Positions 24,320-30,732 of a stretch of DNA of 64,000 bases are shown in pieces. The position numbers and the translations under genes were made by a program. How positions within the stretch are numbered: position 1 is the first letter of the stretch; each line of letters starts with the position of its first letter. This DNA comes from Candidatus Accumulibacter conexus (GTDB taxonomy: Bacteria > Pseudomonadota > Gammaproteobacteria > Burkholderiales > Rhodocyclaceae), in assembly GCA_017592775.1 (NCBI GenBank), contig JAGFNJ010000019.1, forward strand, positions 19,578 to 83,577. The letters run 5' to 3'. The notes under the pieces were generated by a model. The model had not been told where the DNA came from, searched no databases, and saw only the letters and a program-made list of their open reading frames with translations.

Positions 24320-25666
24320 TCATGTCTTCGTCAGGCACTTCAGTCGACGGTACAGCGTCCGTTCCGACAGGCCGAGGTGCCTGGCCAGCGCCTTGCGGTT
24401 GCCGCGGAAGTGACGCACCTGCTCCGCGAGCGAAACCGCTTCGCGTTCGCGGGAATCAGGTTGTGCCGGCAGGTACTGCGGCGGTGCGCCGGGGAGTGTG
24501 CACGCTGCCGTAACCAACTCGAGTGGCAGGTGCTGCAGAAGGATCTCATCACCATCGCAGAGCAGGCTGGCGCGTTCGAGAATGTTGCGCAACTCGCGCA
24601 CATTGCCGGGGTAGGCATAGCGACTCAGCCAGTCGGCCGCCTCCGGCGACAGGCGCCTGCAGGAACTCCCGCCAGCGAGCCGGGCGAGCAGGGTTTCGGC
24701 CAGCAGCAGGACATCGTCACCGCGCTGCCGCAATGGTGGCAGGTGAATCGGGAAGACGTTGAGGCGGTAGAACAAGTCCTGCCGGAAAAGGCCCTTGGTC
24801 ACCATCTCCGTCAGCGGGCGATGGGTGGCCGAGATCGTTCGCACGTCGGCCTTGCGCAGTTCCGGGGCACCCACCCGGCGATACGTGCCGCTTTCCAGCA
24901 GGCGCAGGAGCTTGACCTGGATGGAAAGCGGGATGTCGCCAAGTTCGTCGAGAAACAGCGTGCCACCGGACGCTGCCTCGACCAATCCGGTCGTCCGTGT
25001 CGTCGCCCCGGTGAAGGCGCCACGCTCATGGCCAAACAATGCGCTCTCGAACAAGGTCTCTGGCAGTCCGGAGCAATCGACCGCGACGAAGGGCGCGTTG
25101 GCGCGCGGGCTGAGTTGATGGATGGCATTGGCGACGAGTTCCTTGCCTGTCCCGGATTCACCCTGAAGCAATACGGAAGCCTCCGACGGAGCCACCCGGG
25201 AGATCAGTTCCATCATGCCGAGAAAGGCTGGCGAACGACCGATCAGACCTTGGGCATGCGAACGACTCTGCGCTCCGGGCAAGGCTTCGAGCTTCTCGAT
25301 GTAGAGAACGATGGCGCCGCTGGCATCCCGTATCGGCGATAGCTCGATGTTCTCGAAGCTCTCGCCCTGTGCCGTGTAATGGAGATGCAACACGCGCTCG
25401 CGCCGGCCGGATCGCAGGCTGCGCTGGAGCGGACAGGACTCGCCCGCCTGGTCGCAGGGCACCGTGTGTCGATGCGAAACCTCGAAGCACTTGCGGCCAA
25501 CCACCTCGATCTGGTCGACCCAGTTGGCTCGATACGCCTCGTTTGCAGCCAGTATCCGATAGTCGCGATCGCACAGGATGTGCGGTTCAGGAAGAGCTTC
25601 CAGGAACGACACCAGCTCTGCCAAGGATTTCTGATCGACTGCCACGCGATGCCCCCACTCTGCCAA
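24320..25666 (-). CDS. Sigma-54-dependent enhancer-binding regulator with N-terminal PAS domain
   Basis: A 448-residue activator of sigma-54 RNA polymerase. A PAS domain (about 15-130) precedes an AAA+ domain with Walker A GESGTGKE, the sigma-54 contact loop GAFTGA, GGTLFLDELGDIP, and a Fis-type helix-turn-helix at the C-terminus (RKALARHLGLSERTLYRRLK). There is no receiver domain, so sensing is direct. The PAS domain carries Cys60, Cys71 and Cys78 in a KCFEVSH...PCDQAGESCPL arrangement that could bind metal or report redox state. The proposed start is TTG 25666, with GTG 25645 as alternative. It faces away from a sigma-54 promoter at 25782, its probable target. Confidence 0.93.
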   Translation of the reverse strand: MAEWGHRVAVDQKSLAELVSFLEALPEPHILCDRDYRILAANEAYRANWVDQIEVVGRKCFEVSHRHTVPCDQAGESCPLQRSLRSGRRERVLHLHYTAQGESFENIELSPIRDASGAIVLYIEKLEALPGAQSRSHAQGLIGRSPAFLGMMELISRVAPSEASVLLQGESGTGKELVANAIHQLSPRANAPFVAVDCSGLPETLFESALFGHERGAFTGATTRTTGLVEAASGGTLFLDELGDIPLSIQVKLLRLLESGTYRRVGAPELRKADVRTISATHRPLTEMVTKGLFRQDLFYRLNVFPIHLPPLRQRGDDVLLLAETLLARLAGGSSCRRLSPEAADWLSRYAYPGNVRELRNILERASLLCDGDEILLQHLPLELVTAACTLPGAPPQYLPAQPDSREREAVSLAEQVRHFRGNRKALARHLGLSERTLYRRLKCLTKT

Positions 25667-25669
25667 ACG

Positions 25670-25698
25670 AACTGCCGCATGCTGCCATAGCGGCAGTT
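25670..25698. promoter_or_regulatory. Candidate enhancer (UAS) of the sigma-54 regulator
   Basis: AACTGCCGC (25670-25678) and GCGGCAGTT (25690-25698) form a perfect 9-bp dyad with an 11-base spacer. It lies about 85-115 bases upstream of the -24 element at 25783, the usual distance for an enhancer-binding site, and only 4 bases from the regulator start, which also fits autoregulation. Confidence 0.6.
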
Positions 25699-25781
25699 GG
25701 CAGTCAAAGAAGACGGCAGTGCGTGCGCACAGAAAACATCAACCAATTGATTATTTGATATTTACCTCTTTTCACAGAAAG

Positions 25782-25798
25782 CTGGCACGATCCTTGAT
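25782..25798 (+). promoter_or_regulatory. Sigma-54 (-24/-12) promoter
   Basis: CTGGCACGATCCTTGAT matches the TGGCAC-N5-TTGC consensus with only the last base of the -12 box changed, and GG-N10-GA has the right spacing. It is placed between the divergent enhancer-binding protein and the Rieske/NifX/MBL genes. The expected transcription start is near 25810. Confidence 0.85.
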
Positions 25799-25815
25799 AA
25801 GGAAGTGCTGATAGG

Positions 25816-26160
25816 TTGTTGAATGGCGTGTCAAACCTGGTCGATCCTGATTCGGCAGTAGCGCAGCAACCAGACCATGCGACCAACGAACATCGCTCAC
25901 GAAAGCCGGAGTACTTCGCGGCGGTTGGCACCTGTACGCATCTCGGTTGCTCTCCCGGCAACGCTTTCGATGCTGGCGATCAGGCTCTGGGTGCCGACTG
26001 GCCCGGGGATGTTCTCTGCCCATGCCACGGTGCAACCTTCGAGTTTGCCGGCCGCGTTTTCAAGGACAAGCCGGCGCCGACCAATCTGGGAATGCCCCCG
26101 CACACCTGCCTGACTGACAGCCGCCTGATCATCGGCAGCGACCAGAGCGGGCAGGCCTGA
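25816..26160 (+). pseudogene. petA-like: Truncated Rieske iron-sulfur protein (C-terminal half of PetA)
   Basis: A 114-residue product matching only the C-terminal cluster-binding part of the cytochrome bc1 Rieske subunit. Both cluster motifs are intact: CTHLGC and CPCHGA. The twin-arginine anchor, membrane helix and first beta sheet are missing, so it cannot be a normal bc1 subunit. CPCHGA replaces the usual CPCHGS; that Ser hydrogen-bonds the cluster and raises its potential in studied proteins. The only early start is TTG 25816, barely downstream of the predicted sigma-54 start site, with no clear ribosome-binding site. It may be a remnant or a small soluble Rieske-type protein recruited to this operon. 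Confidence 0.7.
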
Positions 26161-26175
26161 TCGAAAGGACGCATC

Positions 26176-26547
26176 ATGAAGATCGCAGTGACCAGCCAGA
26201 ACCGAAAGACCATCACCGAGCACGCGGGAAAATGCCGCAGGTTCTGGATCTACGAAGTCGAGGAGGGTCTCGTCGTTGGCAAGAATCTGATCGAGGTTTC
26301 CATGCACGAGGTCTTGCACGCCAATCGCCAGAAACTGGCCGAGCCGCTGGCCGGAATCAACGTCCTGATCGCCGGCGGTATGGGGCCCGGTCTTTTTGAC
26401 CGCCTGATGCAGGGTGGCATTCTTCCGGTCATTACACTGGAGGAAGACCCCGATGCTGCGGTAGCCGCCCTGCTCGCCAACAACCTCGATCGGTTGCCCG
26501 TTCGCCGGAGCCATCGTTGCCACGAACGGCAGCACGCATCGCCTTAG
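26176..26547 (+). CDS. NifX/NifB-C-like (dinitrogenase iron-molybdenum cofactor) family protein
   Basis: A 123-residue protein of the small NifX/NafY/Orp family, which binds iron-molybdenum or other metal-sulfur clusters. Typical elements are MKIAVTSQNRKTITEHAGKCRRFWIY and the glycine turn LIAGGMGPGLFDRL. It ends with a His/Cys-rich tail (RRSHRCHERQHASP). ATG 26176 follows AAGGAC. It lies 15 bases behind the Rieske fragment, within the unit served by the sigma-54 promoter. No nif genes are near, so a role outside nitrogen fixation is likely. Confidence 0.88.
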   Translation: MKIAVTSQNRKTITEHAGKCRRFWIYEVEEGLVVGKNLIEVSMHEVLHANRQKLAEPLAGINVLIAGGMGPGLFDRLMQGGILPVITLEEDPDAAVAALLANNLDRLPVRRSHRCHERQHASP

Positions 26548-26616
26548 CGCCCGGCAAGTTCGATCGTCACTGAAGCGGCCACATGCTTCGCAACTGACAT
26601 TTCGCGAGGTAATCAC

Positions 26617-27567
26617 ATGACCCCCGTTGCTCCCCCGTACGACATCGGCGCCCTCCGGCGCTTGCGCATTGTGTGCATCTCGGAAACCGGCTGGTTCGAC
26701 ACCACGACCGTGTTCGACGACATTCGGGCCGCCGGCGGCGTGCAGACCGATCAATACGCCATTCCGTGGCCGCCCTTCGGCCCGCTGCACGCGGAGAACG
26801 CAGCCGGCTTCTCGGCGCTCCTGGAAGCCGAGACGACCGATGGAAGCGTGCGCCACCTGTTGTTCGACACCGGCTGGAACCCCGACTGGATGGATCGTCG
26901 CTTTGCCGAGGAGGGCATCGACCGGCTGCTGCAGGAGGGGCGGATCGAGGCATTGATCGTCAGTCACGAGCATTTCGATCACTTCTGGGGGATCCGCTCG
27001 ACCCTCAGGCACTGCCCCGACATCCCGATCTACCTTCCCGAGGGCTTCCAGCCGGCGGGCCTGACGTTCATTCGTCAGCAGGGTCACACCGGAACGTTAT
27101 CCACCGTTGCCAGCGCGCAGCCGCTGGTGCTGTTTCCGGGGCTGGCCATCGTCAGTTTTCCGATGAGCACATTGCTGCAGGTGCAGGGAGAGAACGTCCT
27201 GTACGCCAACCTCGAGGATCAGGGGTTGACGATGATCACCGGTTGCGGCCACGGAGGGGTGCTCAACCTGCTGGATTACGCACGTCGGAATTTCACGGGT
27301 GGCGAGCGCATCCATGCGATCTACGGCGGGCTGCACCTCTCTCCCCTGGAGGACTGGGACGCGGCCCGGGACGAGATCGTCAAGGCCCTGGCTGGCTATG
27401 GGATCGCCAAGATGGCGTGCAATCATTGCACCGGTCGCACGGCTGTCGAGAAGATGCTGGCGAGCGGCTTGCCAGTCCTGCGCGGGACGGCCCGGCACGG
27501 CTCCCAGACGGAATTGTTCTTGGGTAACGGCGACGCCCTGAATCTGGGAGGGACCGCGTCGGACTGA
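26617..27567 (+). CDS. Metallo-beta-lactamase-fold hydrolase
   Basis: A 316-residue MBL-fold protein. The metal-binding signature is SHEHFDHFWG, with further His and Cys ligands in TGCGHGGVLN, YGGLHL and CNHCTG. It resembles the archaeal and bacterial group annotated as dihydropterin-RFA-P synthase-like, in which the TGCGHxG and GGLHL motifs recur; that name is by resemblance only. No signal peptide is seen. ATG 26617 follows GCGAGG. It is the last gene in the sigma-54 unit and is followed by a long empty region. Confidence 0.88.
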   Translation: MTPVAPPYDIGALRRLRIVCISETGWFDTTTVFDDIRAAGGVQTDQYAIPWPPFGPLHAENAAGFSALLEAETTDGSVRHLLFDTGWNPDWMDRRFAEEGIDRLLQEGRIEALIVSHEHFDHFWGIRSTLRHCPDIPIYLPEGFQPAGLTFIRQQGHTGTLSTVASAQPLVLFPGLAIVSFPMSTLLQVQGENVLYANLEDQGLTMITGCGHGGVLNLLDYARRNFTGGERIHAIYGGLHLSPLEDWDAARDEIVKALAGYGIAKMACNHCTGRTAVEKMLASGLPVLRGTARHGSQTELFLGNGDALNLGGTASD

Positions 27568-28155: not shown

Positions 28156-28656
28156 ATGACGCCTCTGTCCGGACTGCATCGGCAGATCGACGCGCGCGTG
28201 CTGGCGATCCGCTCGGCGCGGCCCGACTGGCAGTGCGCCCGGGGCTGCGACGCTTGCTGCCGGCGGCTCGCCGCCGAGCCGCGGCTGACGGCTGCCGAAT
28301 GGGATCTGCTGCGCGCCGGGCTGGCCGCGCTGCCTGCAGAGCGGCTGCGGCAGATCGACGCCGACGTCGCGACCCTCGACGGTCGGCCGCAGGGCCCGCT
28401 CGTCTGCCCGCTTCTCGACCAGGCGGCAGGGGCCTGCACGGTCTATGCCTGGCGGCCGGTCGCCTGCCGCACCTACGGCTTCTACGTCCAGCGCGAACTC
28501 GGGTTGTATTGCCACCACATCGAGGCACGCGTCGCGCGTGGCGCACTGGCCGATGTCGTCTGGGGCAACCACGATGCCATCGACCACTGGCTTGCCGGCC
28601 TTGGCGAAGTCCGCACGCTGAGCGAGTGGTTCGCGGGCTGGCAGGACAGACCCTGA
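28156..28656 (+). CDS. YkgJ-family cysteine-cluster protein
   Basis: A 166-residue protein of the YkgJ (UPF0153) group. It contains CARGCDACCRRL near residue 30, CPLLDQAAGACTVYAWRPVAC with CRTYGF, and a later CHH. This spacing is the standard cluster for binding zinc or an iron-sulfur centre. The biochemical role is unsettled. ATG 28156 is preceded by GCAGAGCG. It is monocistronic between an empty region and the convergent dtd gene. Confidence 0.85.
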   Translation: MTPLSGLHRQIDARVLAIRSARPDWQCARGCDACCRRLAAEPRLTAAEWDLLRAGLAALPAERLRQIDADVATLDGRPQGPLVCPLLDQAAGACTVYAWRPVACRTYGFYVQRELGLYCHHIEARVARGALADVVWGNHDAIDHWLAGLGEVRTLSEWFAGWQDRP

Positions 28657-29276: not shown

Positions 29277-29731
29277 GCGGCGCCGCCGTTGGCCAGCGTT
29301 CGCCGCATGCAGACCGCCGATGCCGGACACAGGTCGCGGAACTCGCTGCATTGCGCGAGTTCGGGCGGCACCTGGCGGCGATCGAAGGGTTGAAAGCCGC
29401 GGGCGGCAAAAAAACCGGCGGCGCTCGTCGTCAGGAGAAGGATTTCGTGCTGGCCGCGGTTCCGCGCGCGCTGCACGAGTTCATCGACCAACCGGGTCGC
29501 GAGTCCGCGCTGGCGGTGACTGGGTGCCACCGCCAGCGATCGCAGCAGCGCTGCCGCAGCATGAAACTCCAGGCCGCCGCTGGCGACGATTCGCCCACCG
29601 TCACGGCAGACCAGGAAATCCGCCAGGTGTCGCTGAGCAAGGTCGGCCGTTGGCAGGGAACAGGCGGCGAGCAGCGCCAGCAGATCGGGCAGATCGCCTG
29701 CCAGCGCCGGCTCCGGCAGCAGAGCGCTCAT
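29273..29731 (-). CDS. arsN2: ArsN2-type GNAT N-acetyltransferase
   Basis: A 152-residue GNAT acetyltransferase. [19 protein letters not shown] near the start, the acetyl-CoA loop [15 protein letters not shown], then [17 protein letters not shown] and the end [18 protein letters not shown] match the ArsN2 group associated with arsenic resistance. It is flanked by a CDF metal exporter and overlaps both neighbours by ATGA. The substrate in this group is less certain than for ArsN1, which acts on phosphinothricin- or arsinothricin-like compounds. arsC lies 7 kb away. Confidence 0.82.
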
Positions 29732-30732
29732 GACGGTCGCGCTGCGCCGGGCTGCCAACCAGCGGCGCGCGGCAGCCAGCGCACCGGCGCCGAGAGCGGC
29801 TCCGGCTGCAGCGTCACGTGCGTGATGCCGCTGGCGGCCAGGGCTTCCCGGCTGGTGGCCAGCACCGTCGGCCATTGCTCCAGCGAGTCGACGACGAGGT
29901 GCGCAGACAGCGCGACGCGACTGGAAGAGAGGGTCCAGATGTGCAGATCGTGGACCGAAGCGACGCCGGGTATTCCCGCCAGCACGCGCGCCACCTCTTC
30001 GGTCGACAGACTGGCCGGTACGCCTTCCATCAGCGCCTGCAAGACCTCGCGCAGCAAGCGCAGGCTGGAGGCCAGCATCAGCGCACAGATCAGCAGCGAG
30101 AGCAGCGGGTCGGCGGTGGTCCAGCCGGTCCACATGACGACCGCACCGGAGACCAGCGCGGCGACCGAGCCGAGCAGGTCGCCGAGCACGTGCAGCAGCG
30201 CGCCGCGGGTATTCATCGTCTGTTCGCCATGCATCAGCAGCCAGGCGACGGCAATGTTGAGGAGTAGGCCGAGGGCAGCCACCAGCGCCACGGTTTCGCC
30301 CTGGACGGCGACCGGCGTCAGGATGCGCTCGACCGCCGCCACCGAGATGCCGACGACGACGAGGACCATGAAGAGGACGTTGAGGAGTGCCGCCAGCGTC
30401 TCGACGCGACCGTAACCGTAGGTGTGGCGCTGCGTCGGCGGCCGTTGCGCGAGCCAGGCGGCGAAGGCGGCGAGGGCAAGCGAGGCACTGTCGGTGACCA
30501 TGTGGCCGGCGTCGCCGAGCAGCGCCAGCGAACCCGACCAGAAGCCGGCGGCAGCCTCGACGCCAGCAAAACCGAGCGTCAGCAGCAAAGCCCAGAGCAG
30601 GCGCGGGCCGGCGTCCGGCGCGTGTCGGTGCGCATGCTCGCCGTGTCGGTGGTCGTCGTGGTCGTGTGCGTGCCCGTGCGCGCAGTTCTCATGCGCGTGC
30701 GCGTCGTGTTGCTGCAGGTGTGATCCGCTCAT
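29728..30732 (-). CDS. Cation diffusion facilitator (CzcD/ZitB-type) metal exporter
   Basis: Inner-membrane divalent cation/proton antiporter, 334 residues. The N-terminus is a His-rich metal-binding segment (HAHDHDDHRHGEHAHRH, residues about 20-38), followed by six membrane helices with GDAGHMVTDSASL (helix 2 metal site) and HVLGDLLGS (helix 5), and a cytoplasmic domain with HDLHIWTLSS. The histidine sites favour zinc, and Co2+ or Cd2+ are possible. It heads the leftward operon with arsN2 and dtd. Confidence 0.93.
   Translation of the reverse strand: MSGSHLQQHDAHAHENCAHGHAHDHDDHRHGEHAHRHAPDAGPRLLWALLLTLGFAGVEAAAGFWSGSLALLGDAGHMVTDSASLALAAFAAWLAQRPPTQRHTYGYGRVETLAALLNVLFMVLVVVGISVAAVERILTPVAVQGETVALVAALGLLLNIAVAWLLMHGEQTMNTRGALLHVLGDLLGSVAALVSGAVVMWTGWTTADPLLSLLICALMLASSLRLLREVLQALMEGVPASLSTEEVARVLAGIPGVASVHDLHIWTLSSSRVALSAHLVVDSLEQWPTVLATSREALAASGITHVTLQPEPLSAPVRWLPRAAGWQPGAARPS

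Follow-up and report, generated by a model that had tools for sequence, protein, structure and literature searches.

A candidate FisR-type regulon in Candidatus Accumulibacter that joins a sigma-54 activator to NifX-like and metallo-β-lactamase-fold proteins

In the FisR regulons of Cupriavidus pinatubonensis and Acinetobacter baumannii, a sigma-54 activator built of a sensor, an AAA+ and a Fis-type domain stands divergent from the operon it controls, pdo-sqr-tauE. In C. pinatubonensis, sulfane sulfur gives rise to a tetrasulfide that joins Cys53 and Cys64 of FisR (PMC9495516), whereas the FisR of A. baumannii, according to PMC7315123, lacks these cysteines and nevertheless activates pdo-sqr-tauE under sulfide. 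Two further systems invite comparison: the orp operons of Desulfovibrio vulgaris, in which a NifX-like protein is under sigma-54 control near metal-related genes (PMC3897727 and PMC6345978), and IssA of Pyrococcus furiosus, a sulfur-induced storage protein of the NifX/NifB family (PMC5524996). Here, we describe a locus within a 64,000-nucleotide stretch of Candidatus Accumulibacter conexus DNA (contig JAGFNJ010000019.1; hereafter, the window) in which a candidate FisR-type activator is divergent from genes for a NifX-like protein and a hydrolase of the metallo-β-lactamase (MBL) fold (Table 1). NifX-like proteins are often met outside nitrogen fixation, and most of these have no known function.

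Table 1. Coordinates of the features of the locus, in window positions
Feature	Position	Strand	Remarks
Candidate FisR-type sigma-54 activator (PAS sensor, AAA+, Fis HTH)	24320..25666	-	domain scan; GAFTGA in translation
Codons of C60, C71 and C78 of the sensor domain (TTG-start numbering), C-x10-C-x6-C	25433..25489	-	
CTGCCA half-sites at 25618, 25639, 25660 and 25682, and TGGCAG at 25698; proposed enhancer (upstream activating sequence, UAS)	25618..25703	+	overlaps 5' end of activator
Dyad TGCCA-TAG-CGGCA, TGCCATAGCGGCA, core of the proposed UAS	25683..25695	.	upstream of the sigma-54 promoter
ATCAACCAATTG, near-match to the presumed integration host factor (IHF) consensus	25738..25749	+	among aligned relatives, shared with L041 only
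Sigma-54 -24/-12 promoter TGGCACG-N4-TTGAT, TGGCACGATCCTTGAT	25783-25798	+	conserved in Accumulibacter
Remnant of a PetA-like Rieske gene, 114-aa open reading frame	25816..26160	+	about 97 N-terminal residues gone relative to L042
NifX-like protein (PF02579), conserved H16, C20 and H48, short His/Arg/Cys tail	26176..26547	+	domain scan
MBL-fold hydrolase, 2P4Z/TM1679 type	26617..27567	+	lacks the Tat-like N-terminus seen in distant kin

The genome to which the window belongs (G000; 4.87 Mb in 102 contigs, with its closest named loci in Candidatus Accumulibacter) carries the activator on the minus strand, divergent from three open reading frames (ORFs). A preliminary description of this DNA had named a PAS-AAA-Fis activator with GAFTGA, and Pfam scans bear this out, with matches to PAS_4, Sigma54_activat, an AAA lid and a Fis helix-turn-helix in the activator and to Rieske, Nitro_FeMo-Co and Lactamase_B, in that order, in the three ORFs. 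The likely true start of the activator is a GTG at 25645, where locus L044 has an ATG; counted from this start (residue 8), the sensor cysteines 60, 71 and 78, at spacings of 11 and 7, become residues 53, 64 and 71. The first pair has the same spacing as Cys53 and Cys64 of FisR, and the third FisR cysteine we take to be Cys71.

A search with the sensor domain through 300 genomes of the order gave matches in 81, and the best 40 places besides the window's own were examined for their neighbourhoods. The cysteine motif is kept in 40/40 of these homologues and in 16/16 further activators checked, among them that of Cupriavidus metallidurans CH34 (L121, 52% identity), which faces PDO (persulfide dioxygenase) and SQR (sulfide:quinone oxidoreductase) genes, with TauE on the far side. 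In a tree of 63 sequences, among which C. pinatubonensis FisR is not included and which carries a program warning about the long outgroup branch L106, 54 FisR-like proteins cluster together, with the nine remaining PAS activators outside (100/100), and this cluster contains both L121 and L175, the latter with PDO, SQR-like and TauE genes. Divergent partners within 5.5 kb at the best 40 loci are cydA (13), NifX-like (9), CcoG-type (6), PDO- or GloB-like MBL (6), SLAC1 (4), PDO (3) and Rieske (2) genes, along with single cases of an SQR-like fusion with TauE, a weak SQR match and a Spy-like ORF (by eye); eight loci have no reference gene, and two of these eight have a molybdopterin oxidoreductase (by eye; one checked). 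These labels were assigned by scanning a single member of each kind against Pfam and NCBIfam, and those of PDO and SQR fall under whole-protein cut-offs (352.7 of 625 bits for the L160 PDO against NF040641, across the dioxygenase part, and 182 of 525 bits). The activator is, on sequence grounds, a candidate FisR-type sensor of sulfane sulfur, and by analogy with FisR a sulfur signal is likely; the preliminary description had left the signal as redox or metal of some kind, and in its place sulfane sulfur is now the best supported.

Activator and NifX-like gene are inherited together within the genus: strong matches to both (E < 1e-40) occur in the same 11 of 28 Accumulibacter genomes, 10 of which also have a full MBL gene; the eleventh, G203, has none, and G186 retains a broken MBL remnant but neither activator nor NifX-like gene (co-occurrence and linkage counts in the genus ignore relatedness). 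Conservation of the gene order in relatives had been set beforehand as the test of the proposed module, and it was found; the activator/NifX-like/MBL module is real and conserved, and its working unit is the FisR-type activator, the sigma-54 promoter with its CTGCCA sites, the NifX-like protein and the MBL hydrolase. The NifX-like protein passes the gathering cut-off of PF02579 (47.5 bits, cut-off 26.3) and fails that of TIGR02663, NifX of nitrogen fixation (27.6 bits, cut-off 112), and the one other PF02579 match in the genome (E <=0.001) lies within a nif-like cluster on contig C24 (by eye), in keeping with the earlier placement of the unit outside nitrogen fixation. Across the 300 genomes, 14 of 30 NifX-like matches, which come from 27 genomes, lie less than 5 kb from a FisR-type gene, and in the activator tree the NifX-like partners occur in several distinct clades. 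Another operon type that recurs has a FisR-type activator facing cydAB and then a NifX-like gene (L168-L170, L184, L211, L212). In G203, and likewise at an additional G205 locus, a P-type ATPase gene precedes a NifX-like gene; the G205 locus also has a broken activator and a Pyr_redox_2 protein that weakly matches SQR.

The hydrolase, presumably of COG1237 type, has the 2P4Z fold and carries what we take to be the motif set of that type (HxHxDH, C-x-H, GGLH and NHCTG). Its nearest structures are 7DCK (tw9814), 2P4Z and 3H3E (TM1679), with 21-26% identity across the structural alignment, and we know of no physiological substrate for any of the three.

A -24/-12 promoter and an upstream dyad, both noted in the preliminary description, are present between the activator and the divergent genes. 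The promoter is exact in 8/10 Accumulibacter upstream regions (the window, L041-L047, L049 and L050; L048, where no activator was found in the stretch examined, was omitted), the exceptions being L045, with two differences, and L050, without the -12 G. Taken alone, the pattern is no rarer than chance in the window (6 matches at <=1 mismatch, 2 of them exact, versus 5.28 expected), and the sigma-54 score of the window's upstream region has p = 0.037 (p values for upstream regions are without multiple-test correction); the promoter is credible because it is conserved among relatives. The CTGCCA sites of the window are spaced 21, 21 and 22 bp apart, and each of the 10 Accumulibacter regions holds 4-6 CTGCCA/TGGCAG half-sites, while 0/300 shuffled versions of each region attain that many; half-sites are also significant at L121 of C. 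metallidurans (4), L156 (4), L168-L170 (3-4) and L175 (5). Spacings at other loci are mostly 10-12 and 21-23 bp, with exceptions such as 31, 34, 43 and 55. Distances of about one or two helical turns are seen at L041-L050, L121, L156, L168 and L175, as in the window, and with such recurrence, dimers bound to the sites would sit on the same side of the helix. Dyad and promoter at the window's spacing occur once in the 4.87 Mb genome and not at all in a reversed control, with a strict pattern that was itself derived from the window locus.

Taken together, we think it reasonably probable, judging from sequence comparisons, that the locus is a FisR-type regulon acting as a sulfane-sulfur switch of the NifX-like and MBL genes. 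If the activator works as FisR does, a rise in sulfane sulfur (persulfide, polysulfide) would bridge the sensor cysteines with sulfur atoms and free the AAA+ domain; the activator, presumably bound to the CTGCCA sites, which lie two helical turns apart and extend into the 5' end of the activator gene, and possibly aided by IHF bending, would then act on the -24/-12 promoter and turn on the two genes. For the NifX-like protein, the most likely role is to bind or store thiometallates, iron-sulfur or other, that would arise at high sulfide, by analogy with the thioferrate of IssA and the Mo-Cu-S cluster of ORP, both of the same family, and the MBL protein may be a metal-dependent hydrolase acting alongside it. 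A more specific scheme, a thiometallate sink in which FisR-type sensing induces a NifX-like store of iron and sulfide (or Mo-Cu-S) that the MBL protein loads, releases or repairs, is speculative and rather improbable. The likeness to the FisR regulon lies in the domain order and divergent arrangement, in the cysteine pair 11 residues apart and in homologues that adjoin PDO, SQR and TauE genes. Because the targets are NifX-like and MBL genes, unlike the pdo-sqr-tauE operon of FisR, we file the locus as a FisR-type variant rather than a pdo-sqr regulon; the regulon type is already known, and the effectors are what varies here.

Several observations weigh against the proposed sulfane-sulfur switch. 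The MBL gene is present in 0/40 of the best FisR-type loci of the order, and outside Accumulibacter an MBL gene with a FisR-like activator is seen only at L070 of Chromatiaceae, where it sits behind an octaheme cytochrome of the tetrathionate-reductase family and a cytochrome b. In Competibacteraceae and kin (L051-L069), a NifX-like gene lies upstream of the MBL gene in 13/19 loci, and the window-type activator is at none of the 19 in the stretches examined; the NifX-like/MBL pair is thus not tied to FisR, since these bacteria keep the pair without the activator. Six loci have a member of gene cluster F13, assigned to the Crp family from L054, in some cases beside the NifX-like/MBL pair. Nor is the cysteine motif a necessary mark of FisR, because the Acinetobacter protein answers sulfide without the cysteines. 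The window's dyad reaches only a 9/10 score (p = 0.023), a dyad at p < 0.05 is found in 23/34 upstream regions tested and none at that level in 11/34, and sigma-54 scores within 250 nt reach p < 0.05 in 13/34 regions, including 6/10 of those from Accumulibacter. The genome's own PDO/TauE cluster has neither an adjoining FisR gene nor a match to the promoter pattern searched. Finally, the NifX-like protein shares with IssA the domain family IPR003731, which we take to be equivalent to PF02579, but lacks its glycine-rich tail: that of IssA is C-terminal and of high pI, whereas that of the window protein is short, with His and Arg, and not glycine-rich.

The first of the alternatives, and an unlikely one, is an orp-like, redox- or metal-responsive unit for cluster assembly, in which the PAS cysteines would be ligands of a metal or cluster and the gene products would mature a metalloprotein. 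It can draw on orp, where Orp8, which is homologous to proteins that bind Mo-Cu-S, is under sigma-54 control (PMC6345978), and on five loci from Desulfobacterota and their kin (L088, L092, L106, L107 and L115) that unite a PAS sigma-54 activator, an MBL homologue and a gene of family F14, whose label as NifX-like comes from a single match under the threshold (L115, 22.8 bits, cut-off 26.3). The activators of these five loci, however, have a different cysteine spacing or fall outside the FisR-like group, and the partners of FisR-like activators are often sulfide-related genes. Moreover, where orp has the Orp3/Orp4 ferredoxins, Orp5 and MrpORP, the window locus has an MBL gene instead: neither the ferredoxins nor MrpORP were found among the four module genes and three further neighbours scanned, and the MrpORP model matches at the locus over its C-terminal part only (40.5 bits, cut-off 450). 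Of the parallel with orp that the preliminary description drew, the sigma-54 activator and the NifX-like protein stand and the Orp3/Orp4-type ferredoxins and MrpORP fall away, which leaves a loose likeness. The distant MBL homologues (about 40% identity) make up a branch, family F1, whose members are for the most part Tat-exported; among 38 loci of these distant kin, a membrane protein (F2) is directly upstream in 33, a CobW-type GTPase (F3; this name and that of F14 rest on one or two members) is downstream in 27, a Tat-like motif is present in 27, a sigma-54 activator in 10 and a NifX-like gene in 6. The F2-F1-F3 operon is conserved across Desulfobacterota, Campylobacterota, Rhodospirillales and Clostridia (L085-L120), and the F2 protein of L115 has no Pfam match.

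The second alternative makes the activator mainly a switch of sulfide-resistant electron transport (Rieske, cyd, CcoG), with the NifX-like and MBL proteins as accessory factors that repair its metal centres. Respiratory partners are indeed frequent at the best 40 loci (cydA in 13/40, CcoG-type in 6/40, Rieske in 2/40), and a full-length Rieske gene is present in 4/11 Accumulibacter loci with MBL (the window and L041-L050) and in G112, whose genome has no MBL match. In the window, by contrast, the Rieske ORF is a decaying remnant whose sequence changes look like those of a gene under relaxed constraint. Its TIGR01416 score is 93.3 bits (cut-off 97.4), and it covers model positions 84-176 only, whereas the L042 orthologue scores 211.6 bits, above the cut-off. 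The dN/dS of this ORF between the window and L041 is 0.79 (109 codons), compared with 0.17 for the activator, NifX-like and MBL genes and with 0.19 and 0.20 for intact Rieske pairs. An intact bc1 Rieske gene in the window was rejected on these grounds: C-terminal half only, a score below the cut-off, and relaxed-like evolution. Among the 11 loci, the Rieske ORF is of bc1 type with at least 200 residues in four (L042, L043, L044 and L048), is truncated by about 97 N-terminal residues in two (the window and its nearest sister, L041, where the remnant continues in frame into NifX) and is missing from five. Since the NifX-like and MBL genes are retained in the seven loci where the Rieske gene is lost or decaying, they do not need a Rieske target, and a primarily respiratory role is quite improbable. 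The preliminary description had counted three genes opposite the activator; the NifX-like and MBL-fold ORFs hold up, and the Rieske ORF, which probably has no role in the window strain, drops out as a member of the module. Two other Rieske genes above the cut-off are present in G000, one of which precedes apparent cytochrome b and c1 genes (by eye). At L160 (5505-5747), a short ORF between activator and PDO has an end that resembles a Rieske C-terminus and is perhaps another remnant.

That the COG1237-type MBL protein takes part in persulfide oxidation in place of the classical persulfide dioxygenase is very improbable: full MBL genes (10) and strong PDO homologues (E < 1e-100, 10) overlap only in G000 among 28 genomes (hypergeometric P = 0.04, ignoring relatedness), but G000 does carry both, weaker PDO-like matches are present in 28/28 genomes, the window MBL has no match at E <=0.001 to a dioxygenase model, the persulfide dioxygenase model NF040641 (Blh/ETHE1) included, and its nearest structures are those listed above.

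If the thiometallate-sink scheme is right, NifX-like proteins would be a widespread class of sulfur-stress effectors in aerobic and facultative bacteria. The module suggests that these little-understood proteins may serve sulfur stress rather than nitrogen fixation, and their repeated placement behind FisR-type activators supplies a testable signal, sulfane sulfur, and sets them beside cytochrome bd, PDO and SQR. In sewage, Accumulibacter passes through alternating anaerobic and aerobic phases and can be expected to meet sulfide, and the module may bear on the sulfide tolerance of phosphate-removing sludge. Among the literature matches listed, which mostly do not cover subscription papers, no paper joins FisR with NifX-like proteins or with COG1237-type MBL proteins.

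Two tRNA genes lie past the 3' end of the activator. On the other side, near the module, are genes for a putative zinc/iron-chelating CxxCxxCC protein (28156-28656, plus strand) and a cation-efflux transporter (29728-30732, minus strand), and 3 kb from it is a gene for a SLAC1/TDT transporter (PF03595; 30772-31827, minus strand); SLAC1 is the direct divergent partner of a FisR-type activator in G019 and G080. G000's own PDO gene, with TauE- and YedE/YeeE-like genes (names except PDO by eye), is on contig C38 (L204:3142-6193).

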